Assembly (NCBI RefSeq): GCF_032854445.1
Contig: NC_088303.1
Location: forward strand, 28,811,265-28,875,264
Reading direction: 5' to 3'
DNA: 64,000 nt
Source of the DNA: Liolophura sinensis
Lineage: Eukaryota > Mollusca > Polyplacophora > Chitonida > Chitonidae
This document shows, one piece after another, positions 20,256 through 62,759 of this stretch; the stretch's first letter is position 1, and each line of letters opens with the position of its first letter. The translations under genes and the position numbers were made by a program. Under the pieces are notes generated by a model. The model made no database searches. It worked only from the letters and a program-made list of their open reading frames with translations, and was not told where the DNA came from.

Positions 20256-21315
20256 GTCTTTGGTATCTGATCCTTTGATCAACATGACAGTTATGAACAA
20301 CAGGTTAGTAAACCTCGTCAGTGCAAAAAAATTCAAACACCTGGAATAATCAGTCAACCACTTGTATAAAATGCATGCAAACGTGCCCATACATTACTCA
20401 TGTCCGTGTGCGAATTATTTCCATAATGTTTTGTTTCTAAATGTACTAGGTACCAACAACATTTTTATCATTTTGTCATTTGTCTCACATAAAAAACACG
20501 TTATTACTGTCATTTATGGCACAAACCAAAGCATGGTGATATATTATTGAGAGAATCGTTTTCAACTTGGATGATTTAAAACCTGAATAATAATTTTAAA
20601 GAATAATAATTTTTTCATACAAGAAAATAATCCTTGACCTAAATAATTCCCTGGTTCAAGTCAAATTTGAATATGAACCTATTCACACTCTGACTATTGT
20701 AACTTAACAAAGGCGCAGAATATATGAAAAACAAATCCTCGTTAATTTTATTTTTTCTTACATTGTAATCAAATCTCATTTGCATATAGAGCGCGTAAAT
20801 GGTCGTTATCTATATTGGGGTTTAAATTTCTGTTGAATTAAATCTCTTCTTTTTTCTAAGGAAACAAACACGACTGACTGCATTTTAAAAACTGTCGTCC
20901 CTTTAAAAATTACCCATGGTTCTTGTAAAAGATCGACTGTACATATTAGCATCCGTATCCGTTTTCAATTCCGTAGAAACATATACTTTCAGTCAGAATT
21001 ATCAACGAAGAATGGATCCAACAATTGCTGTCAAGTTTCGACATAAATTTGAAAAGCTGTATTCGGTGCAAATGACCAAACTTTACCCCTTTTCGTATCC
21101 CATAATGCATAGCGCACACAAAAAATTAAGTAATTATTCTCTCGGTCTGTACATGTCAATAAACAGGAAAGATCTTTGATTACCCGATGGATAGCAGTCA
21201 CTTGTCAGAACTAGCATCTGTAGTATTACCAAACTGCGCAGTCCTAAATAACGATAAAATCGCCACAAGACAAAATTCTAAATTACAAATAACAGTCAGA
21301 TTTCACATAAATTAC

Positions 21316-21966
21316 CATCTGACATAATTTCACAATACACCGAAAACCGCACACTTGTGGAGTGGCTTCGATTTTCACATCTTCCGAGTCCATCGCTGGC
21401 TGTTCTTCGCACAACTTTTTGTTTTCATCCAACACGTTACCAACTTGCACACTATACCCATTTCTAATGTCAGTGTTTTTCATGTTTGTGAGGTTACCAC
21501 AAAACTCAGAAAACCCTTCCAGTTTAAAATAGCCGCAGTCGTCTGCCTGTTCATCGTTTCCATGTGTCCGTGACTTTTTTGTCGTCCTTTCCTGTGTTTG
21601 ATAACCTTGGTAACCCTGGCTGGTGTAATCGACGGAGGATGCTAGACTTTGGTAACCACCATTGGCGCCTGTTTGAACATTCCGTTCTCGAGCCGCCAAC
21701 ATGTCTTTCTCGCAACAGCTTCTCTGGTATCCCACATCGGGCTTGTCAAGGTAAGTTCTGTCCACATCACCATCTGTGTCCACAGCCGTTTCATAACCAT
21801 CCTCTGAATCAGAATTTCCATTCAGCTTTTCGTAGCCATCTTTTTTTGGTTTTCCTCGACGACCATTGCCCATCACCTCAATCTCCGCTTCCTCCAGTAA
21901 TCCGCCATTTTCCTCAGCATAACTGTCACCCAAACGTTTGTAAGCTGTGATGTTTATCGCTTGCAT
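21316..21966 (-). CDS. Gene A exon 1: long Tyr/Gly-rich cytoplasmic tail of a predicted tetraspan membrane protein
   Basis: The exon codes 217 residues from ATG at 21966 (context TTACCATGC, start MQAINITAYKRLG). It ends in phase 0 at a GTAATT donor (21315-21314). The open frame continues about 13 codons upstream, but a pyrimidine-rich stretch ending in TTTCAG lies just before the ATG, so a 5' UTR intron is possible. The tail is hydrophilic, acidic and Tyr-rich: eight Gly-Tyr pairs (Tyr 45, 58, 80, 105, 119, 122, 146, 171) and four YxxL motifs (YKRL 9-12, YEKL 45-48, YQSL 105-108, YFKL 146-149). YxxPhi motifs are known AP-adaptor sorting signals and possible kinase sites; their use here is inference. 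The last residues (CIVKLCQM) begin the first membrane span, completed in the next exon. Family not recognised; a MARVEL-like protein fits the layout. Confidence 0.72.
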
Positions 21967-22844
21967 GGTAAGGACAGATAGACAGTCAACACTGAAACAA
22001 TCCAAGCAGACAGGGAACTTTTCACTGTCCTCAACAAATATCTAAACATGAAGTTCCCTCGAAACCCTGACCATCTGAAGAGGAAATTTACGAAATGAGG
22101 GTATCTGCACCAGAATGTAGTAGCGAAGCTTGTCGTCACGCGTTCTATAGGCTATAACTGCACAAGCTGTCACACCATGTATACGATCAGTCTACTGGCT
22201 CACACTGCCAGTAAACCTCAGATTAAAATCTACCTTCGGCGTTTGTCACACATCTGTGACTTTCTGGGTCACCATGAAAAATGAGATTTACATTATTTTT
22301 TTTTTATTATCAATTGAGAGATGTCTGTTCAACTGTGCTGCACAGAGATTTTAACACTGGAGGAGGTGTCTGTCTAAATTTGTATATGTAGGATCGCAAT
22401 AGCCGTCTTCCGAAAATACAGTCAAAAGTGGTGCTAAAAGATAAGCCCGTGGTCGTTTTCGTCATATCTTCAGGTCACCTTCCCCCTGACTGACTGACGT
22501 ATTTGTTTTAGTGGACCGGACCACTTTCCCAGTCTCGCGCATCCTTCGGGGGAACAAAAATCGGGTTGAGCCTTATAATTATGAATAATACTTCTGTAAA
22601 ATGAGAATTAAATAGAAAAAATTTATAGAGTAATAAACTCACCAAGTATCATTAATTTTTGTTGCTGCTGTTGTTTGTTTTGATTTGTATTGTTTTGTTT
22701 TGTTTCTATTTTAGTACATATTTCGGCTCGACTTGTAATATACTCATCAAATCACCATTCGTTGTAACAAGTGCATATTAGGTAAGCGTAATATGATTAA
22801 ATTGGACGAAGGGCGATTTTAATAAACGAATCTATATGTATTTG
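21967..22844 (-). other. Gene A 5' flank
   Basis: Likely contains the 5' UTR and promoter on the minus strand; no TATA box or other motif could be assigned. Low-complexity T-runs at 22285-22310 and a TTGTTTTG cluster near 22690. Confidence 0.4.
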
Positions 22845-36474: not shown

Positions 36475-38575
36475 ATAATTACGTACCGGTACGCAATACA
36501 TTTGACAAGAATGAATTGTGTGTAATGTGTAAACAAGCCGGTATTTCACAAAATATCAATGTAAAACTTTTGAATAAATATCTGGGAGCAAGTTCGTGTT
36601 ACAATCGTGGGAATTTCTCAGAATCAACAGATGAATGACCTAATCTACGACTTGTTCCGGCAATGATCTTTCTCAAGTTTCTTTGAATGCAATGACACAC
36701 TCTAATTTCACCACACATAAGCTGTAATTGACACTACTCGTTTTTATACATACTTTCACACAGCTAAACAGAAGTTATGCAACAAAGACGAGGGAACTAA
36801 TCGTGTCGCCTCGTGATAGGAGCTGGCGAACGCTGTTATTGCCTTCTTTAACGCGTTGCCCCAGGGCGGATATCCAACATACCGACAAACTGAACACCAC
36901 ATAAAGATGTGTAAGCCGTACCTGGCACAGAATCTCCGAGACCACTGAAGGCCGAAGAAGTGAGACAAACTTTACAGCCACAGAGTGCAGAGCGTGACTA
37001 CAGCGGCGTGAATTAAGCCTGATAGAGACTCCGTCATTCCTTCGCTGAAGAGAAGTTGATGGGACGGGACGCTGGCTATCTGTAATCATTTCCACCCACA
37101 CTACCCGGCGTTTGACAAGTCAATCGTGAGTAAAAAAAAAAATGCGAAAAAGGCCGTTACGCCGAAGTATAAATTATGCCACATATCAGCTACCCCTCGC
37201 GCAACTAGAAGGCGTGAAGGAATATTATAGTATCATTGTCGTTCTGTTCAGTTTTACCGATAGATCGTTCCTAATTTTTGCTGAGCGAATTTGGTTTCAT
37301 GTTTATGCCCACGTAGGCAATTTGTAAGTATAATTGCTGACACTCAGCTTTTTTAACTAAACTGATTTTTTCTTTGCCCTCCTTTTTTCCGTATTTTCAC
37401 AAACGGTTGTGAATTTTAGTGGCAGTGTACTGCCTTAATTACTGTGTTTTATGCTATGCTTTATGTTACTATTTTAGAATATAGCCCAAATAATTACGTT
37501 CCACAAAATATCAGTTCGTGTGCAAGTGATACCGTTCAAAATCGGCAGTTCTTAAAATTTATACTGCGGCTTCATAACTTTTTTCAAATTTCAGAATTAT
37601 TTCAATACTATAAATACTAAAGGTACGAAAAGCTTTGATTTAATTATTAATTGGTAAATGGAGGGACTTTGATTTGATTAGCAAATGTGTTTTATTTTTT
37701 GGCCAAAAATCTCTGGCTTCCTTAAATATAGGCCACTCAAACTGCGTCACGGTATCTCTAAGCAGAAGTTGTGGTGTCGTTATTTTCTACAAACACTGTT
37801 GACTTACATAGTTTGATGTAGAAAGCAGATACTAACTAAATCGTGCTGGTGATACGATTCGTAACCTCTGAGATTAAGAATTTTGTTTCGCCTTTTTCGA
37901 GAATTGATCGAATATACATTGAATATATTTCTACACGTGCATTTACATCGAGTACGATTCCCAAAAGTGATTATTTTTCTAAGCTAACAAAAAAAGAATG
38001 ATGCGTGTAAATAGCTGACCCAATTTCTGACAGTTGTATGTTCAACAGTGTACAGTGGATTTGATAAGGTCAAAAGGTTACATTAGGGTTAGGGGTTAGT
38101 TTGTTTTTTATTCCTAAAGATGGAAATAAGTCTAATGATGCGATCCACAGCGTATTCAGGAGACGATATTTCGGCACATAACTCACTGTCTACATATTAC
38201 AATTACACATTAACGAATAAGAAGTGCAAAGCGAATAGATGAGTTGTCAAGTCCGTAAAAACACTCAGAGTCTGGACAATTAAGAAACCTTCGTTTAGAT
38301 TACATTTATTTATCTGAAATTGTGACACTAATTCAATTAACGTTTCAGATATTTGGAAATGTGTATTTAGGCATTGTTTTGATAGACTGAAATTTCATCA
38401 CTTCACTTTTGGGGCCATGCACACGCAGTCAGTTATTTTCACTTGATGTTTTTTGTTATTCAGTCTTTGGAGACATCCAGTCCGTTCTTTTCACCTGACG
38501 TTATTGTGTGTGTGGGTTTTTTTCACTGTATCGTTTATGAAGTTACGACTTTTAATTTGGAATCTGTGCGAAGCA
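36475..38575. other. Non-coding, with one doubtful transporter-like fragment
   Basis: On the minus strand near 36760-36900 a peptide CRYVGYPPWGNALKKAI loosely recalls the Y.GY.xPxW..ALG region near the C-terminus of SLC6 transporters. It is out of context and unsupported. Nothing else seen. Confidence 0.35.
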
Positions 38576-38577
38576 AT

Positions 38578-38822
38578 CCGTGGCTCAGTCGGTTAGCGCG
38601 CTAGCGCAGCGTTCAGAAGCCTCTCTCACCAATGCGGTCGCTGTGAGTTCAAGTCCAGCTCATGCTGCCTTCCTCTCCGGCCGTACGTGGGAAGGTATGG
38701 AGATGGTCGTGGGTTTCTCCTGGGCTCTGCCTGGTTTCCTCCCACCATAATGCAGGTCGTCTTCGTATAAGTGAAATATTTTTGAGTACGGCGTAAAACA
38801 CCAATCAAATAAATAAATAAAT
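38578..38822 (+). mobile_element. MetaSINE-like SINE, near full length
   Basis: It starts CCGTGGCTCAGTCGG, has a small deletion in the head-centre junction (AAGGTATGGAGATGG) and ends in (AAAT)n. Confidence 0.9.
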
Positions 38823-39012
38823 ATTAAAAAAATTCCTTGTTTTCACATGACCTTTTGCACAGTGGTTGGGAAATATTTAATCTTGTGTCATGATGAACAT
38901 TCGTATACCGTTTGTAAATTATGAAGGTGAGTTCCAACTGGATAATCGACCGATATACCTAACACCTGTTTCCAAGGAAGTGTGATATCCAATTCAAATG
39001 ATAAACCCAGGA

Positions 39013-39179: not shown

Positions 39180-39292
39180 ATGAATGCTGAGGCAATGTTA
39201 GTTTTCATCGCTGCCTCATTATGTACAGTGATAAGTGCTGCACCTCTCAACGAAAGACAAAACGAAGGTACAGATAACAAAATAAAAATCAA
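39180..39292 (+). CDS. Gene B exon 1: signal peptide of a secreted Cys-rich protein
   Basis: ATG at 39180 (AGAGCCATGA) opens 37 codons plus two bases. The product starts MNAEAMLVFIAASLCTVISA, a clear signal peptide with likely cleavage after ISA, followed by the polar APLNERQNEGTDNKIKI. The exon ends in phase 2 at GTAAGTCG; reading through would hit TAA at once, which favours splicing. A pyrimidine-rich tract ending CACACCAG (about 39160) suggests the ATG lies in a second, partly non-coding exon. An antisense open frame over this stretch has no coding features. Confidence 0.72.
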
Positions 39293-40946
39293 GTAAGTCG
39301 AACAAAGCAAAGTTTTTAATTTGGAATTTTTCTTAGTATTTATGTATGATGAATACTCAACAACCTGTTTTAGCTGCAAGTTGTTGTTGGTGTTACTTCC
39401 TGTTGAAGATGCGTGATGTTTTTCATGTATTTGATGGAGGGCAGTTTCTAAATGCGCATGCGTCGTAGCTTGTGACCGCAGGTTGGCCATTATGTTTTGC
39501 TATTTCTTCGGTATATAAGAGAGAGCTCGTTTGCTTAGATATTAAAGACGCCCAGTTCTATATGCTCTCTGTTTCGGCTGGAGCTGTGTGTGGTGAATTT
39601 TTTCAGTAACTCTAAAATGATTATCGTTTCTAAAGCAAGGGACGTTTTTTTTTTTCAGTCTCCTCCCGCCAACGCCCTCCTCCCCCAACTCAACTGTACA
39701 ATAGCCACTCAGAATGGACAGTGTTACCGTATTAAAACTAAAAATTGATGAAATTAGCTCAATTCGTAGATTTAGTTCATATTACGGTCAACAAACAAAA
39801 TATTCTAGTTATTCTCCTCTTTATATATACCCGTTACATCAGATTTTAAAACTACAGGGATAGGAACGAAGAAACAATTACTCATGATGATGAACATTAT
39901 CTATTTTTTTTTACTGGTAGAAGATTGCTTAAATTAGCTGTGTAGCTCAGTTTTTGTTATGTTTACTTCATTTACGCTATGTAATATTTATGTAATATGC
40001 CCAGCAAAATTACATTTGACACCTGTGGAATTTGACATCACCAGCGTGAGATATTACCGCTAAGCTGATATCATCATATACCCTCTAAAAGAGAATCTTT
40101 CAAGTTTATCCTAATGTTTCTGAGTAATTTTATGGAATAGATTGTCTAACTATAGCATAATGCTATGTTATTCACAAACCAATACCCCGTTACACCCACA
40201 AAATTATTCTATTGGAAGAACAGTTCAATTATGTTACATGAAACACAATAGTTTGTATGAATAACATGATCTATTCTGATATCACTCTAATATTCTGTCA
40301 ATTCAACAGATTAGTTATTAGAGTGTATGAGACGCCAGAGGCGCAAAAGCTGAATATATTGGATCAATGTATTTACAATTACGCGTCAAGGAACCTGCCA
40401 AGCAAGGTTTTCGGCGATAAGGCCATGGGATGGGCTGTAAACAATCGCGAGTCTGGCTCCCTTGGGCGACATCAACAACGTCAACGATAAGGAACATATC
40501 GGTATTAGTTTGAAATTTTACTCAATATATGACTTGCATACGCGGCAATTTTGAATAACTCCAAGGTCAGTGGGACCAGATTGATCACCCATGAAGCGAT
40601 GTTTCTATTAATAGTTGATACTCATGTATTCTTTCTTCTAAAGTATGCGCAACATTTTCAGTTAAACACCAGAAGAATATTATTGACGAATGCTGATTAC
40701 ACAGGCCGGCGCAAGTTCAGCAGTGATAAGGCTACTTGTCAAGTGGTGGCATTGATCCTTTAAAAGCGAGTATAGATATCGTCATTTCAGATATAAATAT
40801 TCGAAAGTTCTTCGCAGTACACAAGAAATCTTTCTTGAAAAAAGAAAAAAAATTCTTTAAGGGAGGAAATACATTTATGGAAGATGCAAAACAAAGTTTT
40901 TTGCGCGAGAGAAAACTTGACAAACGATGCAGATCTGCCACTTTGA

Positions 40947-41471
40947 TTAAAGGAGAAGAAAATTTAAATATCAATGAAATACCATTGAAAAGACTATGCA
41001 GGTTGATAAATCATAAATAAAGTCAGCGAAAAAAACCCGCTGTGGGTGACTCCAATTTTGCCCAAGAACTAGTCTTCTGTGTTAGGAGGAGAATTGTTGT
41101 CGGTAACCGCCGAAGTGAAGTTCGTACATTTCCGGTAGAAATCTTCTTCCCAGAAGGTAGCGAACAGTACAGTTCGTTTTTGCGCTTGACGATCGGGAAA
41201 CCGGAATGTTGGTCGTAGGTTCCGAGTTTACAAGAACAAGTTTTAAAGACTCTCATTGGCTGAGAGGCAACACACCCCCAGCATAAATTACAGGGTGTTA
41301 AAGATGGAGGACGCGATGGATTCAGCGATTTATGCCAGCTTTGCCGTATTCAGGCTTTACGTGTATGGTGAGGACAAATCGCAAAATTATGCAGCAGGCG
41401 CCACTAGATAAGAAAAAAATGTGCTCGTTTCAGCATATAGTGTCATGTTTTTAAGTTCTCTTCTCCTTTAA
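40947..41471. mobile_element. TTAA-flanked MITE-like element
   Basis: Left end TTAAAGGAGAAGAAAATTTA; the right end on the other strand is TTAAAGGAGAAGAGAACTTA. The ends resemble those of 26607-27177 (TTAAAGGWGRAG). It is in gene B intron 1 and has no coding capacity. Confidence 0.6.
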
Positions 41472-41774
41472 CATAATGACTCATGCAATCCAGTTCATGC
41501 GATCGCATAGTCTTGCATTCGTATCATTACAGTTGTAGAAGTGAATGCCACTACTATGTATGGCCTGAAACTCTATTAGCTACGCTTGGGTCATAACCGC
41601 GCAACAAATACACGTACGCTGACACTTATCAGTGAGGACAATTCTCTTCCTAAGGTATATTTCTCTCGCCTGAAAGTGTTTATTCATGTCTCTTCACTTT
41701 CCGAACAAAAGTAATTCCGAGCAGAGATGTGCAGAGTAGTCTGATATTCCAAACCGCCAAAAGTTATGCTTATA

Positions 41775-42045
41775 TTCACTTGTTTATTTAATTTACTGGT
41801 GTTTTAACGCCGTTCTCAGAAATATTAAACTTATACGACGGTGGCCAGCATTATGGTGGAAGGTAATCGGGCCGTGCCTGGAGGAAACCCACGGCCATCC
41901 GCAGGTTGCTGAGAGACCTTCCCACGCACCGCCGGAGAGGCCGACATGAACTGGACTTGAACTCACAGCGACCACATTAGTGAGAGATTCCTTTTTCATT
42001 GCTCGGTGCCTGCGTGCTAAACACCTCGGCCACGGAGGCCCCCTC
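41775..42045 (-). mobile_element. MetaSINE-like SINE, full length, with target duplication
   Basis: Complete copy ending in CCACGGAGGCCCCC on the right. ATGCTTATA flanks it at 41766-41774 and 42046-42054. It sits about 115 bp before gene B exon 2. Confidence 0.9.
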
Positions 42046-42159
42046 ATGCTTATACATCATGCCTGATAATTACAACCGTGTAGCTTGGGGTTTTTCTAAT
42101 GGCCCATTTTCCTAAATTATTAGGCAATACATCTTCACGAGCTGATTTCGTCCTTTCAG

Positions 42160-42278
42160 CCCCCAGCCATGCTTACCCCTGTCTGACCAAGATTTGGTGC
42201 TGTACAAGGAAATAGGATGCTCTGTCAAGTACAGAAACGATGGGTCGAAGTGTGCCGTTGTGGAGTCCTGTCCTGCAG
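42160..42278 (+). CDS. Gene B exon 2: cysteine module 1 (PCL...GC...CAVV..CP)
   Basis: The acceptor TCCTTTCAG is followed by one base completing the codon from exon 1 (AA+C, Asn), then 39 codons and one base before GCAG|GTAAAT. The module reads PQPCLPLSDQDLVLYKEIGC and then SVKYRNDGSKCAVVESCPA. The cysteine spacing and the anchor residues PCL, L, Y, GC, VV and CP recur in exon 4 (49529-49635), which also runs phase 2 to phase 1. The pattern is extracellular and disulphide-rich, close to the CxVV..CP segment seen between von Willebrand factor C repeats. Not assigned to a named protein. Confidence 0.8.
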
Positions 42279-42351
42279 GTAAATATCAGCAAAGTCAATT
42301 TACAGGCAAAGATTTGGACAAATGAAAGAATAGTTTACGGCAAATATTACC

Positions 42352-42510
42352 GATGGCTTCCTCTCCGGTCGTAAGTGGGAAGCTCAGCAACCTGCGGATG
42401 GTCGTGGGTTTCCCCCGGGCTATGTCCGGTTTCCTCCCACCATAATGCTGGCCGCCATCGTATTAATGAAATATTCTTTACGGCGTAAAACACCAATCAA
42501 ATAAATAAAT
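42352..42510 (+). mobile_element. MetaSINE-like SINE, 5'-truncated
   Basis: It begins at GGCTTCCTCTCCGGTCG and ends (AAAT)n; AAATATT occurs on both sides. It is in gene B intron 2, next to the 93-bp array. Confidence 0.82.
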
Positions 42511-44880
42511 ATTGTCGAAGAATGAAACAATCCTGAATAGTTTTAGACAAAAGTTACGGTGAATGAAGCAACATAGTTTTATTGAGATGTTATAGCAGAC
42601 TGAAAGAAAACCCCGCATAGTTTTAAACAAGCGGTATATGGAACTAAGCAAGAACCATAGATACTGTAAAATGACTTGACTTTGTATGAAAGAAGACTTG
42701 ACTTCTACGGGGAAAAAAACATAAAAAAAGCCTTGCAAGGCCAATATTCTATATTAACCTTGTGGGGAGCAAAGCAAGAATTGTGCATAGTGAAAGACAT
42801 TTAAATGGTATGGACGAAAAATGAAGCATCCTTGCATAGAAAATAGTGTAAGACGACCCTTATGGAAGACGAATGAAGTAGTCTTGTATGGACACTTCTG
42901 AACAAACGTTGTAGGAAATGAAGAGTAGAGCCGTGGGTAGTGTAAGACGCCCCTTAAGAAAAAAGAATGAAGTAAGCTGGTATGAACAGTTCTAGACAAA
43001 TGTTGTAGGGAATAAAGCAAGAGCCGTGGGTAGTGTAAGACAACACTTATGGAAGAACTATGAAGTAAGCTTGTATGAACAGTTCTAGACAAATGTTGTA
43101 GGGAATAAAGCAAGAGCCGTGGGTAGTGTAAGACGACACTTATGGAAGAACTATGAAGTAAGCTTGTATGAACAGTTCTAGACAAATGTTGTAGGGAATA
43201 AAGCAAGAACCGTGGGTAGTGTAGGACGACACTTATGGAAGAACTATGAAGTAAGCTTGTATGAACAGTTCTAGACAAATGTTGTAGAAAATAAAGCAAG
43301 AGCCGTGGGTAGTGTAAGACGACACTTATGGAAGAACTATGAAGTAAGCTTGTATGAACAGTTCTAGACAAATGTTGTAGAAAATAAAGCAAGAGCCGTG
43401 GGTAGTGTAAGACGACACTTATGGAAGAACTATGAAGTAAGCTTGTATGAACAGTTCTAGACAAATGTTGTAGGGAATAAAGCAAGAGCCGTGGGTAGTG
43501 TAAGACGACACTTATGGAAGAACTATGAAGTAAGCTGGTATGAACAGTTCTAGACAAATGTTGTAGAAAATAAAGCAAGAGCCGTGGGTAGTGTAAGACG
43601 ACACTTATGGAAGAACTATGAAGTAAGCTGGTATGAACAGTTCTAGACAAATGTTGTAGAAAATAAAGCAAGAGCCGTGGGTAGTGTAAGACGACACTTA
43701 TGGAAGAACTATGAAGTAAGCTTGTATGAACAGTTCTAGACAAATGTTGTAGAAAATAAAGCAAGAGCCGTGGGTAGTGTAAGACGACACTTATGGAAGA
43801 ACTATGAAGTAAGCTTGTATGAACAGTTCTAGACAAATGTTGTAGGGAATAAAGCAAGAACCGTGGGTAGTGTAGGACGACACTTATGGAAGAACTATGA
43901 AGTAAGCTTGTATGAACAGTTCTAGACAAATGTTGTAGGGAATAAAGCAAGAACCGTGGGTAGTGTAAGACGACACTTATGGAAGAACTATGAAGTAAGC
44001 TGGTATGAACAGTTCTAGACAAATGTTGTAGGGAATAAAGCAAGAACCGCAGATAGTGTAAGACCACTCTTATGGAAGAACGATAAAAAAAACCTTGTTT
44101 GGCCAGTATTCTACATTAACCTTCTGAGGAGCAAAGCAAGAAGACATTTAAGTCTGATGGACTAAGAATGAAACATCCTTGCATGGAAAATTTTAGACAA
44201 ATGTTGTAGTGAATTAAGTAAAAACTGTGGATCAATAGTTTTCTATTGCCCTTATGGAAGACGAATAAAGTAACCTTGTATGGACAGTTCTAGACAAACG
44301 TTGTAGGAAATAAAGCAAGAACCCTAAGACGACCCTTATGGAAGACGAATAAAGTAACCTTGTATGGACAGTGCTAGATAAACGTTGTAGGAAATAAAGC
44401 AAGAACCCTAAGACGACCCTTATGGAAGACGAATAAAGTAACCTTGTATGGACAGTGCTAGACAAACGTTGCAGGGAATATAGCAAGAGCCGTGGATAAT
44501 GTAAGACGACCCTTATGGAAGACGAATAAAGTAACCTTGTGTGGACAGCTCTAGACAAACGTTGCAGGAAATAAAGCAAGAACCGTGGACAGTGTAAGAC
44601 GACCCTTATGGAAGACGAATGAAGTAACCTTGTTTGAACAGTTCTAGACACACTTTGCAGGGAATAAAGGCAGAACCGTATATGGACTTTATGGAAGAAT
44701 TAAAGAACCCTAGTTAGTTTTAGAAATTTATTACGGGAAAACATAAGTACCGCGGATAGCTTTAATGAATTAACCCTGGGAAGATTTGGACAAACGTTTT
44801 GCGGAATAAAAGAAGAACCTTGAACAGTGTTAAATAAGTGTCACTGAAAACTTAAAGAACCCTAGCTAGTTTTAAATAAG
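42485..44880. repeat. 93-bp minisatellite in gene B intron 2
   Basis: About 12 near-identical 93-bp units span 42940-44050 (core GAACTATGAAGTAAGCTTGT, then AGTTCTAGACAAATGTTGTA). Diverged units, including shorter 76-bp forms, lie on both sides. Because 93 is a multiple of three, the minus strand stays open for 437 and 139 codons. The frame has no start or splice context and I reject it as a gene. A further block (about 42728-42850 and 44098-44200) is repeated in the same orientation 1.37 kb apart. Confidence 0.93.
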
Positions 44881-45639
44881 CATTATTAATAAGTATCATT
44901 TATAGCTGTTGTTGTTTTTGATCCATGTCTTTGGTATTTTTTACTCTGTAACCCGAGTCAAAAGCATGATTTCAGTGCTCCAGTTCGCCGACCCAGATTA
45001 CTCTGACCGCGATATTTTGCGTAACGTCTCGGTGTAGGACGCAACCTTAATCAGATCAAACATCGTGATAAGACAAGAAAGAAAGAATTGTGTACTGTTG
45101 TCTTTAATAGTTCAGCCGCCCTGTGTCCTCACGTGCCGGCGGGCTGCCTAGTCACATGTATTTTCTACACGTGACCCAACAACTACACATACAATATCTA
45201 CATTCAATGCGTACTTATGGAGGCTCGGATCACCTACATTTGAAGAGGCAAGGTGACCTCGATTTTAACGAATCAAGTTATGCCTGTACCTACACTTAAT
45301 AAGACCCAGCCTTGCTGATGAACACCTTAAGAACTACTGTTCGACCAAGGAAGCCGGATGTTTTCGCTACAAAAAAATAATTTATGTAAAGCTAGAAAGC
45401 TATTTTTCACGACATTCTCTTAGTTTTTGTCAAGGGCTTTATTGACCAGCTACCAAATACTTCCTAACTTCTTGTTTTGACGATAATTAATTTCCATAAA
45501 AGCGCTTGTGACAAATCGTAGTGTATGTCGAGACGAAAATCAAATAGTTTTTAATGAAATTAACAGTCAATTTGAACTACACTTAAAGGGTTTTTTTTGT
45601 CGGACCAGTTTTTGCATAGACTAGTAGATTGTTTCAACG

Positions 45640-46020
45640 ACGATCAAGTAGTTTTAGCCAAATCTTAGGCTTCTACTGATGATTTTAAGAAAATTGATTT
45701 TCAACTTGATTTTAAGAAAATCAAACACTTTCGCAAAACCATTCTGCTGATTTCATGAAAACCAGGCTCTTCTGCAAAACCAGTATAGGCTGATTTCAAT
45801 AAAATCAAGGTGTCCTGTCAAATCAGTAACCTTATTTAAAGAAAATCAAGCACTCTTGTCAACCTAGTCGGCTGATTTCAAGAAAATCAAGCTGTTTTGT
45901 TAAACCAGTACAGGCTGATTTCAAGAAAATCCAGCAGTTTTGCTAAGCCAGTAGGCTGATATCAAGGCAATTCAGCATTTTTTAAAATCAAACCGACACA
46001 TCCAGCACATTTTTTTTCAA
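45640..46020. repeat. ~43-bp degenerate repeat with hairpin core
   Basis: Units read GGCTGATTTCAAGAAAATCA, then AGC..TTTTG..AAACCAGTA. The core TTGATTTTAAGAAAATCAA is a near-perfect palindrome. It is in gene B intron 2. Confidence 0.75.
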
Positions 46021-46851
46021 AGCAGACTGTTTTCATGACAGTAAAACCATTCCAGCCAATCCAATGGTTTGATACTTTTTAAATCAAACAATATTGATTA
46101 AACTAGGTGGCTGTATTACCAGGAACCAAATACTTTTTGTCAAAACTACATGATAGTTTAACGAATGACAAACAATTTTATCGCGTATCCCTTTTCGTAT
46201 CACATGGAAACACTTACCATCACTGGGTGAAAACATTGTTTACCCAAGGCAGAACTGTTTCCACTCAGATGAGAATTGTTTTCATTCAGGTGGATACCAA
46301 AGAGCAAGTTATAAACTTCAAAAAAATATTTAAAAAAAAACATGAAGTGTCGTGTGTATGCCATTGTATACATTTGTGATTTTCTTCACTATTGATGCTA
46401 CATGCCAACTAAGCCTCTAGCCTCTTTTTAATAGCTATTAATTTGTTTCTTCGAGCTGTCTTCGCTTATAATCTCACTGCGACATGATTTCGTATGGACG
46501 GAAATGAAAAGCCGACATGTCAAGGCTGAGGGCTGATACGCTTCGCTGGTCATCACGGCAGACAGCTTCACTCAACGTCTCACGTGTTGATACAGTGAAA
46601 TACCTTTTAAAAGGTTTCCGCAAATGGACGATCCGTGACTTTTTCAGCTTGCATTTAAGATCCTGCATTTTACTTTGACAGAGGTATATGCAGATCTTTC
46701 GGGGACATATTTTTTCCTGTAGGATAGGTCATTACCGCAGGGTATTTGTCGCATAGTAAAGAAAAAATGTTGAGGTATTTGATAACTTTGTGTGGCGGTT
46801 AGGCATTACGTGAAATAAACCATTTTTTACCCATATCCTTGTCTTTAGAAT

Positions 46852-47665
46852 GCCCGTCAGGTCGTTCACCCTTTAAATTCTATTAACCTGAGAGACATTC
46901 ACTGAAGGTAAAGTGTCAACCACCTTGCATCATGAATTGATAAAGAAGATCATTTTTGTGTAACGAAAGTGTTTCTTTCAGAAATTGTCATTAATTGTGT
47001 TTACCATGTAATATCTACAGCCATGCCCGTCAGGTCGTTCACCTACAAGGTACATTGACCGAAAAGGCACTCACCAGATATAATTGTCAATCACCTTGCA
47101 AAATGGACTGATAAAGAAGATCATTTCTGTGTAACGACTGTGTTTCTCACAGTGTATAGTGTAACATTTACACTATTGCCCGTCAGGTCGTTCGCCTTAC
47201 ATCGTTCATCAACCGTAAAGGCATTCGCTGCAGAAGCATCTCAACAACTTTGTATCGTGAATTGATTAAAAAATAATTTCTGTGGTACGAAATGGTACAA
47301 GTTCTCTCATAAATGACGTTAACCAGTGCAGCTTCAGCAGCAGTACACGTCAGGTCGCTTTCCTTACATCGTTCATCAACCGAAAATGCATTAGCTGCAG
47401 ATGAATATCAACATTGTATCGTGAACTGATTAAAAAATTAGTTCTGTTTTATGAAATTTTTTCTAATAAATCCTGTCATAGATGACGTTAACCAATGCAG
47501 CTTCTGTAGCGGTAACCGTCAGGTGGTTCTCCTTCCACCGTACATTACCTGAAAAAATAATTCATTACAGATGAATGTTGACCTCCTAATATCGCGAACT
47601 GATAAAGAAAAAATCGTGTCCTCTCGCACATCGTGTCATAAATGATGTTTGCAAGCGTCCGTTGC
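46852..47665. repeat. Five-copy ~153-173-bp tandem repeat
   Basis: Units start near 46852, 47025, 47178, 47345 and 47515 with CCGTCAGGTCGTTC. Each keeps a GAATTGATAAAGAAGATCATTT-like middle. Diverged, so old. It is in gene B intron 2. Confidence 0.8.
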
Positions 47666-47680
47666 AAATCACCTGGGCCT

Positions 47681-47757
47681 GGTTGTTGAAAACTGGTGTA
47701 AGACTTGATTCCAGATTTAACCTTAAGTCAAGTCTTCAGTTTTGCACTTGGCCCAAA
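47681..47757. repeat. Small inverted repeat with GGGCC ends
   Basis: GGGCCTGGTTGTTGAAAACT, then GTAAGACTTGA, on the left; TCAAGTCTTCAGTTTTGCAC, then TTGGCCC, on the right. A 76-bp hairpin. Confidence 0.55.
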
Positions 47758-47759
47758 TC

Positions 47760-48817
47760 AATTTTGGAATATTATGTTGAATATCAGTTGAAACTGCTGC
47801 TATACCTTGTCTTTGGAGATTTACATTGGGTGCAGAGCTTGGTTAAAAATTTAGTTATAAAATATGACTTAATACCAGTATTAGCTAATACACTTTAGGA
47901 CAAATGGGCCACGGAAAAACTCTTATAAGAAGGTTCTAAAGTACATCTCTCTCCATCACTAAGTACATTATATGCGGGATTTCCACCGTGTTACCGTTAA
48001 TTCTTGTGCAAAGTTGATTAATGAGACATTCGCTTTCAGTGTATTGCCCACCCATTCCCTAGCCCAGCTTTACCGCAACTCCGCCCTCAGGGGCGTATAC
48101 CCAGTTTGTGTACTGAGAAAATGGATCTTATAATAGGATGAAATCTTGCTGATTCTCATATTTGGAGAAAAAATAAAACCAAGAAATAAGGGCGAGATGA
48201 GGTTTGATGTTATTTATAGATAAGCAGACACCCATTAGGCAAATTAGGATAAAATTGGTTAACTTAGAATATAAAAGAAGATAACTGATACCGTGGTAAA
48301 CCGCTTAATCAACGACAGCGATTTGTTCTTTCGGGTTACCCATCCAGTTATAATATTCTGTCGGGCTGCATTTTTTGAAACTGGAGACAAAGTAAAGTGT
48401 ACTGATTAAACCGGTCTCTATCGGTCTCTCATTATAGAGGCATGAGCCCTATGTTGCTTTGTCAAATCAAACTACATTTTTGTTTCAGAAGGTTTTTCTG
48501 GGGGGTTGTCGAAGGTCTTGAGTACGGTGCATGTCCCCGAATAAATAAAAAAACAAGCACAAAATGGCAATAGCTTCGACATCTTGATGTCGTCTTGCAC
48601 TCCGGATACTCGTTAAGTAAATGGCCAATGTTAAAAGATAGGAGGCCCATGTTAAAAGATAGGAGACCATGTTAAAGCATAGGAGGCCGTGTTAAAAGAC
48701 AAGAATTCAAAAATTTAGCAATCGACTCGGTCAAGTGAGCAATTGCTCGATTAACCGAGAGACTAACCGAAAACGCAACTAATAAGGCCATTGATCAAGC
48801 ATACAGTATCTTCACAG
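47760..48817 (+). other. Right end of gene B intron 2
   Basis: No repeat or exon recognised. A second-half cysteine module might be expected somewhere in this intron (42279-48817) but was not found. Confidence 0.45.
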
Positions 48818-49133
48818 ATGCTCCAACATACGAGGCCCGACTCCTACGAGCATGGCTGATGTGGAAGATGTACCCCAACTCATCTGTGCAACCTGGGACC
48901 CCAGGGAACGCCACGGATATTTCCAACGCTTCACGGGCTAGCGACAAGCAAACTGACGAGCCAACTGCTGTCAGCACTATCGCTGCTCAGCTGCCACCGA
49001 TCCAAAGTACGACAACGCCACCTGGCACCCCTTCCACTCAGAGTACGACGACGGTTAGCACCACCACCCCACGGGCTTTGTTTCGTACGACGACAACAAC
49101 ATCCAAACCAGAGGTGCGTCGAGTGACGCCTGG
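48818..49133 (+). CDS. Gene B exon 3: Thr/Pro/Ser-rich linker
   Basis: The exon ends at a perfect donor (CCTGG|GTAAGT) in phase 2, matching exon 4. The start is less certain: TATCTTCACAG gives phase 1, matching exon 2 and adding DAPTYEARLLRAWLMWKMYP before the linker. A later in-frame acceptor (GACCCCAG, about 48904) would remove that stretch. The sure part, from about NATDISNASRAS onward, is rich in Thr, Ser and Pro (STTTPPGTPSTQSTTTVSTT) and has two NxS/T sites, so a mucin-like O-glycosylated spacer between cysteine modules is likely. With the first acceptor the exon has 316 bp and the complete six-exon frame is 972 bp, with no stop before the end. Confidence 0.58.
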
Positions 49134-49194
49134 GTAAGTACACAGTTACGTCAAGTATATGTAATATACGGGATAACAGTATAAAGACTAAAAC

Positions 49195-49255
49195 TCTTTA
49201 TTAGAGTGATGGTTTGCAAATGGTCACAAGCAAGCGGTGAAACCCGGCCTCTCAT
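49195..49255 (+). repeat. Dispersed ~200-bp repeat, fragment
   Basis: GTTTGCAAATGGTCACAAGC, then GCGGTGAAACCCGGCC. Confidence 0.4.
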
Positions 49256-49319
49256 TTTCTTTGGTACTGTTTACATGTTCATTAAGACAGACTTTACCAA
49301 ACATTTTAAATCCAGTGTT

Positions 49320-49482
49320 CACCCTTCTTTCCGGCCGTACATGGGAAGGTGGTTCAGCAACCTGCGGATGGTCGTGGATTTCCCCCGAGCTCTGCCCGGT
49401 TTCCTCCCACCTTATAGCTGGATGCCGTCGCACAAGTGAAATATTCTTGAGTCCGACGTAAAACCTCAATCAAATAATTAAG
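49320..49482 (+). mobile_element. MetaSINE-like SINE, 5'-truncated
   Basis: It begins CTTTCCGGCCGTACATGG and ends CCTCAATCAAATAATTAAG. It is in gene B intron 3, 46 bp before exon 4. Confidence 0.8.
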
Positions 49483-49528
49483 TAAATATTTAACCCTTGG
49501 TGTGTAGGTCAAATTAATTTCTTTCCAG

Positions 49529-49635
49529 CACCCCGTGCCTCAGATATCGCCGAACGGCCCTTGCAGTGTACAGACGAATGGGATGTACTATAATACCGAG
49601 CATTGGATGCACAGTTGTAGCCAATTGCCCCACAG
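49529..49635 (+). CDS. Gene B exon 4: cysteine module 2 (paralogue of exon 2)
   Basis: The acceptor TTCTTTCCAG and donor CACAG|GTACTT give phase 2 at the start and phase 1 at the end. The 35 whole codons read TPCLRYRRTALAVYRRMGCT and then IIPSIGCTVVANCPT. From PCL to GC it aligns without gaps to exon 2 (18 positions, sharing P, C, L, L, Y, G and C), and both end in C-x-VV-xx-CP. Same phase, same length class and same residues show an exon duplication. Confidence 0.8.
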
Positions 49636-49821
49636 GTACTTTAAAAATATTGCTTTGCTTAGTTGCTTTTAAGCGTTTTATTACCCCTCGGGCAAAAATT
49701 GTCATAGTGTTATTGTGATCTGTCAACTTTCTTGTAAACGCTCTATCTCTTGAACGCTTTAAATTAAATTTACCAAATATGTGCCATAGATGAATAAAGC
49801 CATGGAGAAGGACTGTACTGT

Positions 49822-51960
49822 ATCTTGTCACCAGCTGTCCATCATCCTGACTGTACTGTACCTTGTCACCTACTGTCCGTCATTCTGACTGTACCGTACC
49901 TTGTCACCATTTGTCCGTCATCCGGACTGTACTGTACCTTGTCACCTGCTGTCCATCATTCTGACTGTACTGTACCTTGTCACCAATTGTCCGTCATCCT
50001 GACAGTACTATGCCTTGTCACCTACTGTCCATCATGCTGACTGTACTGTACTTTGTCACCAACTGCACGCTATCCTGACTGTACTGTGCCTTGCCTCCAA
50101 TTGTCCGTCATCCTGACTGTATTGTACCTTGTCTCCAATTGTCTGTCTTTGTGACTACTGTACCTTGTCACCAGCTCTCCGTCATCCGGACTGTACTGTA
50201 CCTTGTTACCAGCTGTCCATCATCTTGACAGTACTGTGCCTTGTCACCTACTGTCCGTCATTCTGACTATACTGTTCCTTGTCACCAGCTGCTCGCTATC
50301 CTGACTGTGCTGTGCCTTGTCTCCAGTTGCCCGTCATCCTGATTGTACTGTACCTTGTCACCAACTGTACTGTACCTTGTCATCAACTGTGTACTGTGCC
50401 TTGTCTCCAATTGTCCGTCATACTGACTTTACCGTACCTTGTACGTATACTGTACTGTATCTTGTCACCAGCCGTCCATCATCCTGGCTGTACCATATCT
50501 TGTCACCCACTGTCCGTCATCCTGACAGTACTGTGCCTTGTCACCTACTGTCCGTCATTCTGACTACACTGTTCGTTGTCACCAATTGCTCGCTATCCTG
50601 ACTGTACTGTGCCTTGTCTCCAATTGTCTGTCATCCTGACTGTACTGAACCTTGTCTCCAGTTGTCCGTCATCCTGACTGTACTGTATCTTGTCGCCAAC
50701 TGTCCGTCATCCTAACTGTACCATGCCTTGTCTCCAATTGTCCGTCATTCTGACTTTACCGTACCTTGTACTTATACTGTACTGTATCTTGTCACCAGCC
50801 GTCCATCATCCTGACTGTACCGTACTTTTTCACCTACTGTCCGTCATCCTGACAGTACTGTACCTTGTCACCAACTGTCCATCATCCTGACTGTACTGTG
50901 CCTTGTCTCCAACTGTCCGTCATTCTGACTCTACTGTACCTTGTCCCCAACTGCCCGCTATCCTGACTCTAATGTACCTTATCACTAGCTGTCCGTCATC
51001 CTGACTGTACTGTATCTTGTCGCCAACTGCCCGTCATCGTGACTACTGTACCTTGTTTAAAGTTGTCCGTTATCCCGACTGCGCTGTACCTTGTCACTAG
51101 CTGTCCGTCATCCTGAATGTAATGTACCAAGTCACCAGCTGTCCGTCATGCTGACTGTACTGTACCTTATCACTAACTGTCCATCATCCTGACTCTACTG
51201 CACCTTGTCACCAACTGTTCGTCATTCTGACTGTACTGTACCTTATCACCAGCTGTCTGTCATCCTGACTGCACCGTACCTTGTTACCAACTGTCCGTCA
51301 TTCTGACTGTACTGTACCATGTCACTAACTGCCCGTTATCAGGACTGTACTGTACCTTATCACCAACTGTTCGTCATCCTAACTACCGTACCTTTTCACC
51401 AACTGCCCGCCATCCTGACTGTACTGTGCCTTGTCTCCAATTGCCCGCCATGCTGACAGTACGGTACCTTGTGACCAACTCTCCATCAACCTGACTGTAC
51501 TGTACCTTATCACCAACTGTCCATCATTCTGACTGTATTGTATCCCGTCACTAACTGTGCGTCATCCTCATTGTACTGGACCTTGTCACCAACTGTCTTT
51601 CATCCTCACTGTACTGTACCTTACCACCAACTGTCCATCATTCTGACTGTATTGTACCTTGTCACCAGCTGTCCATCATCCTGACTGTACTGCACCTTGT
51701 CACCAGCTGCCCATCACCTGGACAGTTCTGAACCTTGTCACCAACTGTCCACCATCCTGACTGTACTGTGCGTTGTCACCAACTGTCCGTCATCCTGACA
51801 TTTCTGTACCTTATCACCAACTGTCTGTCGTCGTCACTGTACTGAACATTGTCACCATTTGCCTGTCATCCTCAGTGTGTTTTACTTTAGTGACAAGATA
51901 GTACTTTGTCTCAAAAACCTTTCTGTGCCTTATCACCAAAGGTGAGGTACTTCTGCTTTA
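49822..51960. repeat. 38-bp minisatellite filling gene B intron 4
   Basis: More than 50 diverged copies of a 38-bp unit (TTGTCACCAACTGTCCGTCA, then TCCTGACTGTACTGTACC). The array ends about 30 bp before the exon 5 acceptor. Short open frames through it are artefacts. Confidence 0.93.
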
Positions 51961-51987
51961 CCAATTCTGTTCTGGTGTACTTTTCAG

Positions 51988-52152
51988 ACTGCCAGGATGC
52001 TTCTGGTCAGCATCATCAACTCGGCAGTAGCAGGTGGTTCGAAAATGACCAGATGTGTAGCTGTGATAACATTCGTGCTGTCAGAGCATTTGTTCCCAGA
52101 ACACCGCGCCGGGGAACCCCCTATCCACCATATAAAAACTGCGTCACCTTTG
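51988..52152 (+). CDS. Gene B exon 5: von Willebrand factor C-like half-module
   Basis: The acceptor TACTTTTCAG lies about 40 bp after a 2-kb tandem array. The frame is phase 1 to phase 1; 54 whole codons follow the Asp made with exon 4 (CPT-D-CQD). The sequence starts CQDASGQHHQLGSSRWFEND, then QMCSCDN, and ends YKNCVTF. C, G, W, C-x-C and a later C is the order seen in VWC domains. The donor is TTTG|GTGGGT; the alternative donor four bases later breaks the frame of exon 6. The open frame reads on into the intron to 52217 but is not needed. Confidence 0.75.
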
Positions 52153-52569
52153 GTGGGTACATACAATATGCCATTGATAACCATATTGATCCGCACATTA
52201 TAGTTTTGCATGTTTAATGCATTTCCGCATTCCAACTGGTCTCTGGTTTCGTTGCCATAACTGCTTTTTAAATATTGCTGGATATTAATAAAGTTTTGTG
52301 TGCAAGTTCATTTTTCGTAATCTCGCATCACATTTCAAAACAAGCCTGATCCGTGCATTTGCTTTACATACTTAACGATTCCCTGGATTCTGATTGGTCG
52401 TTGGGTTAAATACTATTTCAGTTTTTTGCAGATCTGCAAAAATATTTTATGCATTTCCTTTTATGGTCACTCAGATTAAGTCTGTAAAACATCTTGTTCC
52501 ATGCCTAATTTTGCCCAATTAACTGTCGGATATAAATTCACTGAATTCTGTTTGCTTGTTTCGATGTAG

Positions 52570-52721
52570 GCTGTTTCGTACCGGAAATGTACGACTACAT
52601 CAAGCCTAATGAGAAGGTAACACGACCTGATGGCGAAAGGTGCGAGTGTAAGGAGGGTATTGACCCGAACGTTCAGGATGACGCCCCGCCCTTCCACCTC
52701 TCCTGTGCGCCAGTGACGTAG
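52570..52721 (+). CDS. Gene B exon 6: second VWC-like half-module and stop
   Basis: The acceptor TTTCGATGTAG gives phase 1. 49 codons and TAG (52719-52721) follow. The sequence starts GCFVPEMYDYIKPNEKVTRP, then DGERCECKEG, and ends FHLSCAPVT. The C-(about 22)-C-x-C-(about 20)-C pattern repeats that of exon 5, and the exon phase is the same, so exons 5 and 6 look like a second duplicated module. The six exons sum to 972 bp, giving 323 residues. No AATAAA is obvious just downstream; ATAAA-like sequences occur near 52935 and 52980. Confidence 0.78.
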
Positions 52722-53119: not shown

Positions 53120-53900
53120 TCTTCAGAGAGGCGAGTGAAATGCGTGTGTATTTTTGCTGATATTTTAAGACAAAAACATTCGATGTTCTGGATAGACTGG
53201 TGAATACTGTGTGTGCAGTGCTACTGAAATATCAAATCATTCTGGATTCTATACACATTCGAGATTCCAGACTCTGGTTGGCGAGTGTTGCGTTGGTGTA
53301 CATTGTAGTGTTAATGCTATTTCAAAACATTCAAGATGCGAGATTCTGATCGGCGAATGTTGCGCTTGTGTACAATGTAGCCTTGCTGATATGCGAAAAC
53401 ATTCCTGATGCATTAGTCTGATGGGCGAATGTTGCGTTTGTGTACATCGTAATGTTACTGATTTCTCAAAACATTCGAGATTCTAGCCCCTGATCGGCGA
53501 ATGTTATGCCTGTGTACAATGTAGCGTTGCTGAATTGCAAAACATTCGTGATGCCTTACTCTGATCGGCGAATGTTGTGTTTGTGTACATTGTAGTGTTA
53601 GTGGTCGCTCAAAACATTCGAGATTCTAGCCTCTGGTCGGCGAACGTTGCGCTTGTGTACCTTGTTGCTGATATCTCAAAACATGGCGAGATTCTAGACT
53701 CTGATCGACAAATGTTGCGTTTGTCTACAGTGTAGTGTTGCTGCCAGCTGGAAACGTTCGGGACTATAGACTCTGATTGGCGTATATTGTGGATGTGTAC
53801 AGTATCATGTTGCTGAGATCGATATTCTAGACTCCGAACGGCGAATGTTGAGTTTGTGCACAGTTCTTGATAATGATGTGTGAACGTTGCCAGTGACTAC
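53120..53900. repeat. ~73-bp degenerate tandem repeat downstream of gene B
   Basis: About nine units with GGCGAATGTTGCGTTTGTGT, then CTCAAAACATTCGAGATTCT. It starts 400 bp after the gene B stop. Confidence 0.82.
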
Positions 53901-62021: not shown

Positions 62022-62600
62022 AGCCCATGAGGGTGAATACATGATGATAAAACCCAGTCCAAAGGAATAATACATTACAATAAAACCCAGTCTATAAGGA
62101 TGAATACATGACGACAAAACCCAGTTTATAGGGATAAATATATGATGATAAAACGCAGTCTATAAGGATGAATGCATGATGACAAAACCCAGTTTATAGG
62201 GATAAATATATGATGATAAAACCCAGTCTATAAGGATGAATGCATGATGACAAAACCCAGTTTATAGGGATAAATATATGATGATAAAACCCAGTCTATA
62301 AGGGTGAATACATAATTATAAAATCCAGCCTATAAGGGTGAATATATGACGATAAAACCCTGTCTATACGGATGAATACATGAAATCTATAAAGATGAAT
62401 GCATAATGATAAAACCAAGTAAATGTATGAGTGCTTAGGGTTTAACAAACTCATAAAACCCAGTCTGTAAGGATTAATACATGATGATAAAACCCAGTCT
62501 AGAAGGACGAATACATGATGATAAAACCCAGTCTAGAAGGACGAATACACAATGATAAAACCCACTCCAAGTTGATGAATAGATGACAAACCCCACCCAA
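62022..62600. repeat. 34-bp repeat with 68-bp higher-order unit, in an ELMO intron
   Basis: Unit GGATGAATACATGATGATAA, then AACCCAGTCTATAA. At 62103-62295 units alternate between two forms (GATAAATATATGATGATAAA and GATGAATGCATGATGACAAA), giving a 68-bp period. It lies between the ELMO exons at 61425-61559 and 62760-62827. Confidence 0.88.
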
Positions 62601-62759
62601 AGGGATGAATAGGTAATGACAAAATGAAGCCATTAAAGATGCTGAACTTGTCAATAACTGAAAACAATCTTGGAGAGAGGTAAACCGTACACATATGCAT
62701 TTAAAAATACAAGCTATTATTATATGTAAGAACGAATGTAACTATTTTAATAAACTCAC

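Follow-up and report, generated by a model that had tools for sequence, protein, structure and literature searches.

Results

The window analyzed here is a 64,000-nt stretch of the Liolophura sinensis genome (C9:28811265-28875264), in which positions 39180..52721 carry a predicted six-exon gene on the plus strand, gene B. We rebuilt the gene model from the DNA alone and searched for relatives in the whole genome (609 Mb, 632 contigs), the only eukaryotic genome searched. Exon 1 (39180..39292), which exits in phase 2 at a GTAAGT donor, encodes, as judged by eye, a signal peptide with a hydrophobic core at about residues 6-20 and a cleavage site of the ISA/AP type, followed by a short spacer. 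Exon 2 (42160..42278; phase 2 in, phase 1 out) encodes a four-cysteine module, PCL module 1 (residues 38-77), and exon 4 (49529..49635; phase 2 in, phase 1 out) encodes PCL module 2 (residues 184-218). Between them, exon 3 (48818..49133; phase 1 in, phase 2 out) specifies a Thr/Ser/Pro-rich linker containing three N-x-S/T sites (98, 108 and 114). The tail of the protein comes from exon 5 (51988..52152; phase 1 on both sides), with a first finger, C220-x21-C242-x-C244-x25-C270, that resembles PSP94 (beta-microseminoprotein, MSMB), and exon 6 (52570..52721; the last exon, ending in TAG), with a second finger, C275-x22-C298-x-C300-x18-C319, whose predicted fold is fibronectin type I-like.

All five introns are GT..AG, with exit phases of 2, 1, 2, 1 and 1, and the 972-nt coding sequence comprises 324 codons (323 plus a single terminal stop) without internal stops. 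Thus, the six exons, phases and codon count of the original prediction were all reproduced from the DNA. Because the exon borders were picked to agree, phase agreement is weak proof of a gene. Better internal proof comes from comparing the exon 2 and exon 4 products, which share the pattern PCL...GC...C.VV..CP: the alignment scored 57 (shuffle mean 19.1; 0/5000 shuffles as good), and the two exons have the same entry and exit phases. These data show that the two predicted PCL modules (cysteines 42/58/69/75 and 186/202/210/216, with an extra Cys15 in the signal region) are duplicates of each other. Only the frame and the signal-like peptide support exon 1, and exon 3 is supported by frame and composition. 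For exon 1, GTAAGT after 39292 gave an open chain and donors nearer than 39292 did not; since its GC content is 0.37, compared to 0.51-0.57 for the other gene B exons and 0.35-0.47 for the introns, exon 1 has no compositional support. Together with the relatives of exons 5-6 described below, which are the best proof for gene B, these findings confirm the prediction of a six-exon gene for a secreted protein with duplicated cysteine modules.

We compared the two C-terminal fingers. The paired CxC spacing, a pattern set post hoc, arose in 1/200,000 shuffles of the C-terminal region and 10/200,000 shuffles of the mature protein. Because alignment of exon 5 with exon 6 was at chance (4148/5000 shuffles as good), the fingers have their spacing in common rather than their wording. 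MAFFT alignment of both missed the CxC, and we rejected tandem duplication of these exons on sequence. Thus, duplication, which had been proposed for the modules generally, held for the PCL pair and not for the two C-terminal halves.

Fold predictions were also examined. The PCL module was predicted to form one helix and two strands, with a predicted local distance difference test score (pLDDT) of about 45-50. Since both models were single-sequence predictions with mean pLDDT of 47.2 and 51.3, we treat their folds as leads. Among structures, the exon-5 model was closest to PDB 3ix0, which is beta-microseminoprotein, and the exon-6 model points, weakly, to a fibronectin type I-like finger. Sequence searches of PDB gave no match for the gene B C-terminus, exon 6, the exon 2 module or an alignment of six family members (A4, below); a second alignment, A2, matched only a chitinase (0.42). 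A globulin matched by exon 5 (0.8) was judged chance.

To find relatives, we searched the genome with the C-terminal 140 residues. The eight matches were three gene B exons, two weak exon 6 matches on contig C11, and three others (L024, L025 and L026) that we set aside as chance, as they lacked the CxC pair or contained internal stops. In all, the exon 5-6 pair recurs at five further loci, two of which are complete three-exon genes, par1 and par2. These lie in tandem on the minus strand of C11, within the 20 kb examined: par1 at 12803664-12803730, 12802876-12803028 and 12801696-12801874 (132 aa), and par2 at 12799590-12799656, 12797939-12798091 and 12796293-12796465 (130 aa). Both splice sites were checked in each. 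Their layout is a signal peptide (by eye), a phase-1 intron, an exon-5-like module, a phase-1 intron and an exon-6-like last exon, with the same eight cysteines as the gene B tail. Exons 5-6 of gene B scored 129 against par1 and 128 against par2 (shuffle means 28; 0/5000 as good in each case). In a PDB search, par1 matched a Pizza6 design (E 4.6e-6), although no single stretch passed alone, and an enzyme (1.5); both were taken as spurious.

Over 126 codons, par1 and par2 differ by a synonymous divergence (dS) of 0.122 and a nonsynonymous divergence (dN) of 0.070. Exons 1 and 2 differ 12 and 17 times, but the third exons (L029 and L030) are identical across 52 codons. From the low dS and dN and the identical third exons, par1 and par2 appear to be recent or partly homogenised copies, and the third-exon identity suggests gene conversion or unequal ages.

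A search with par1 yielded 17 matches at E up to 10, with gene B itself at E 0.74. Four were par1 and par2, and C1:88.47 Mb, C11:11.82 Mb and C6:77.42 Mb each contributed two. Incomplete matches were found at C6:40.90-40.92 Mb (two, finger 1 only), C7:55.73 Mb (one, finger 2 only, broken) and C11:12.785-12.791 Mb (three). Alignment A4, of the six two-finger members including gene B, contains 16 invariant columns: the eight cysteines, D4, W17, G56, G77, G85, P88, D92 and H98, where G56 is a junction codon that was joined by eye in three members (C1, C11:11.82 Mb and C6:77.42 Mb, from open frames). We left out L038 and L040 (C6:40.90-40.92 Mb), L042 (C7, finger 2 in pieces) and L043, L044 and L047. 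Missing cysteines, stop codons or disrupted frames make the last three (C11:12785581-12791629, minus) look degenerate, in keeping with tandem copies in decay.

In seven of the 12 exon-6 matches printed, representing five genes including gene B, the acceptor for finger 2 is located two bases ahead of the Cys codon (phase 1); in the other five (L041, L046, L042, L043 and L047), where the match starts past the first cysteine or the frame is broken, the border was not read. The border between D and C before finger 1 of the C6:77.42 Mb member is identical to that of gene B. Gene B itself has the eight cysteines, D4, W17, the G..P...D...H stretch of finger 2 and the phase-1 border before it. These comparisons show, for predicted genes, that a family with eight invariant cysteines and phase-1 borders exists in this genome. 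No PCL match was printed for the 17 par1-matched loci (about 3.1 kb each; tblastn, E up to 0.05). In the window and 100 kb on each side (20 stretches of 10 kb), nothing fell below E 0.3 besides the gene B exons and the exon 2/4 cross-match. Searches of prokaryote and viral contigs gave 8 and 1 pattern matches, none confirmed.

The sole Pfam match of gene B was PSP94 (PF05825); the C-terminus gave E 0.0086, exon 5 alone 0.012 and the full-length protein 0.057. Neither gene B nor the submitted pieces of its relatives matched a family above threshold; as far as Pfam goes, the original description of an undescribed-looking protein is true. BLASTP against human MSMB gave E 8e-4 and 30% identity over 44 residues, running from MSMB residue 1 across the exon 4/5 junction, such that the end of PCL module 2 aligns with the N-terminus of beta-microseminoprotein. 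In comparisons of the C-terminus with human and pig MSMB, 3 and 12 of 5000 shuffles were as good, or 3 and 4 when cysteines were fixed. The corresponding counts were 27 and 159 for par1, and 71 and 659 for par2. When a two-sequence MSMB profile was run against 6792 open reading frames (ORFs) from 264 kb, the spliced gene B tail ranked above each ORF, though at E 0.052, and the full-length protein was fourth (0.5). With hhalign, the family aligned to MSMB 17-44 (three members; P 2.4e-4, probability 43.8) or 17-45 (six members; P 7.4e-4, probability 25.7).

We also compared intron positions, using published data (papers are given by PMC identifier throughout). In MSMB-type genes, the start codon forms the final three bases of exon 1 (PMC3268785). 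PMC2746217 tables four marmoset genes, each with a 106-bp exon 2, and a 114-residue precursor that yields a mature protein of 94. Counting 35 codons and one base after the Met would place MSMB intron 2 within the codon of residue 37 (phase 1), directly before mature Cys18, assuming that marmoset exon sizes are valid for the aligned human protein. Gene B intron 4 is in phase 1 directly before C220, the residue aligned with Cys18, and this shared intron adds weight to MSMB kinship. Overall, there is support, though weak, for relating exon 5 to the N-terminal Greek-key domain of beta-microseminoprotein.

Several results weigh against this kinship and against the finger folds. Gene B did not reach the PF05825 cut-off (14.4-17.1 bits versus 22), and the pieces of its relatives had no Pfam PSP94 match. 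When chicken MSMB3 was added to make a three-sequence profile, the exon 5 ORF came first (E 0.11), and the six rows printed did not include the gene B tail. By sequence, the MSMB C-terminal half matched gene B at chance (4234, 4263 and 1711 of 5000 shuffles as good for human, pig and chicken), as did PCL module 1 against MSMB (1679 and 4362/5000) and chicken MSMB3 against par1 and par2 (857 and 817/5000). The intron of par1 and par2, also phase 1, lies one codon upstream of its position in gene B and MSMB. For the folds, there are the low pLDDT values given above, and Foldseek itself returned nothing at E <= 0.001.

Gene B is surrounded by, and contains, repeats. A 93-bp tandem array of 19.9 copies (42844..44669) lies inside intron 2 and a 38/76-bp array (49811..51872) inside intron 4. 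Further long tandem arrays occupy 13550-14602, 15097-16214, 53255-53801 and 62030-62612, and an interspersed element with AAATAAATAAATA-like tail ends was seen by eye at about 38575-38830, 41790-42045, 49330-49490 and other sites. A 252-aa open frame on the minus strand (21283-22041) had the top codon score among 479 ORFs, a score partly trained on that frame, and no Pfam match. Two sub-threshold Pfam matches among seven window ORFs were set aside, and scans of the window for tRNAs (ARAGORN) and Rfam families gave no match. Downstream neighbours are a TMEM70/186/223-family exon (L003:2279-2956, plus) and an SH2-domain exon (L006:3842-4138, minus). DDE_3 transposase fragments were found at L010:9305-10000 (minus) and L014:4346-4663 (plus), the latter under the Pfam cut-off.

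Discussion

Our favored reading, to which we give a probability of about two in three, is that the product of gene B is a secreted mosaic protein, probably with O- and N-linked glycans, and that its tail is a two-exon finger cassette that also occurs alone in small tandem genes. In this protein, a mucin-like stalk would be flanked by the two four-cysteine modules of the head, and exons 5-6 would supply the tail as a pair of small beta fingers, each with four cysteines and locked by disulfides. The cassette behind its own signal-peptide exon may be the older unit, to which gene B would have added a duplicated exon encoding four cysteines together with the mucin-like linker. This linker could hold the fingers away from the head modules. 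The product would act extracellularly as a ligand or binding protein; most likely it is secreted and glycosylated, and uses the fingers of its tail to hold a partner outside the cell. PSP94 attaches to CRISP-type proteins at their CAP domain, and by this analogy our first guess at the partner, a long shot, is a CAP-superfamily protein of a reproductive or mucosal fluid. The reproductive part of this guess derives from squid beta-microseminoprotein, as cited in PMC9759900, and from a gastropod MSP-like precursor (PMC10036341).

We further propose, tentatively and with the odds somewhat against it, that gene B is a fusion within an unnamed multigene family of secreted eight-cysteine, two-finger microproteins, one in which the microprotein became the tail of a mucin-linked mosaic. 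The family would have arisen from the finger that also gave beta-microseminoprotein, occupy at least five contigs (C1, C6, C7, C9 and C11) through tandem and dispersed duplication, and include candidate ligands for reproduction or chemical communication.

The best-surviving alternative, which we consider unlikely, is that gene B is a divergent true MSMB/PSP94 gene with extra N-terminal exons, encoding a waterborne or seminal signal like squid beta-microseminoprotein. The Pfam, 3ix0, BLASTP, shuffle and hhalign likenesses and the shared intron position and phase would fit such a gene, as would the MSMB-like genes that PMC3268785 places in molluscs and the effect on squid mating behaviour cited in PMC9759900. 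However, gene B has no equivalents of C37, C49 and C50 of the ten-cysteine MSMB signature, its C-terminal domain finds no support, and it falls below the Pfam cut-off. A PF05825 search of its own genome was without match, yet so was the control.

It is still less probable that the fingers are VWF-type E/TILa modules (PF12714) that originated in a zonadhesin-like protein or gel-forming mucin and became detached as small genes. The C6:77.42 Mb relative matched this family weakly (E 0.052), which is far under the cut-off, whereas gene B and the submitted pieces of the other four paired relatives were unmatched.

Slightly less probable again is that exons 5 and 6 encode growth-factor-binding VWC domains of a matrix or BMP-modulating protein, as suggested by the original assignment of the C-x-C halves to VWC. 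What stands of that assignment is a relation to the fold common to VWC subdomain 1 and fibronectin type I. Membership does not: one subdomain 1 cysteine and all of subdomain 2 are absent, and at E up to 10 neither VWC (PF00093) nor fibronectin type I (PF00039) matched the gene B protein, its C-terminus, individual exons or the pieces of five relatives. For the possible role in matrix, shell or mucus that was also suggested originally, the mucin-like linker is the one feature in favor.

That gene B is a dead gene, or that its open segments were chained together by chance, is very improbable: frame agreement across five junctions is easily reached by choice, and the 2.8 kb downstream holds one ATTAAA (55460) and zero AATAAA, but exon 2/4 homology with equal phases, paralogs with identical exon borders and the lack of an internal stop all oppose it.

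Returning to the mosaic with a finger cassette, its interest is that a cassette without a Pfam name, found alone and fused in one genome, is a defined and testable unit. It would show that fingers like those of beta-microseminoprotein and fibronectin type I can be reused outside known settings, and be the first example of a small gene family that looks undescribed, as opposed to a new type of biology. As relatives of beta-microseminoprotein have been tied to squid mating behaviour (cited in PMC9759900), relatives in other animals are candidates for similar signalling.

Among known systems, beta-microseminoprotein is likewise small, secreted and cysteine-rich, and shares with the gene B tail a C-x-D-x2-G-x2-H...W...C-x-C stretch, a same-phase intron just ahead of the same cysteine, and the predicted exon-5 fold, for which 3ix0 is the top structural match. 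It differs in having ten cysteines, including a CC pair and an interdomain cysteine, instead of eight in two fingers; its second half is unrelated by sequence, and gene B adds the PCL modules and linker. Fibronectin type I modules have the four-cysteine pattern C..CxC..C, which both gene B fingers and the five paired relatives share. Besides the missing PF00039 match, the distance from CxC to the last cysteine (18 and 25 residues) is longer than is usual for fibronectin type I, and literature searches on this module in molluscs and on VWC fold terms found nothing. A VWC domain has ten cysteines over two subdomains. According to PMC6270503, subdomain 1 pairs C1-C4 and C3-C5, while C2 reaches subdomain 2 (in CV2, Cys9-31, 29-38 and 26-60), and PMC8167871 gives C12-C35 and C33-C42 for chicken MSMB3, with C30 bonded to the other domain (C30-C66). 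Each four-cysteine gene B finger has the positions of VWC C1, C3, C4 and C5, without C2 or subdomain 2. In each finger, the disulfides would be expected to link cysteine 1 with 3 and 2 with 4, the arrangement of fibronectin type I and VWC subdomain 1. With the cysteines for pairing within the finger retained and the outreaching one (C2 of VWC, C30 of MSMB3) absent, the gene B fingers, if so paired, fit a free-standing finger of the fibronectin type I kind.
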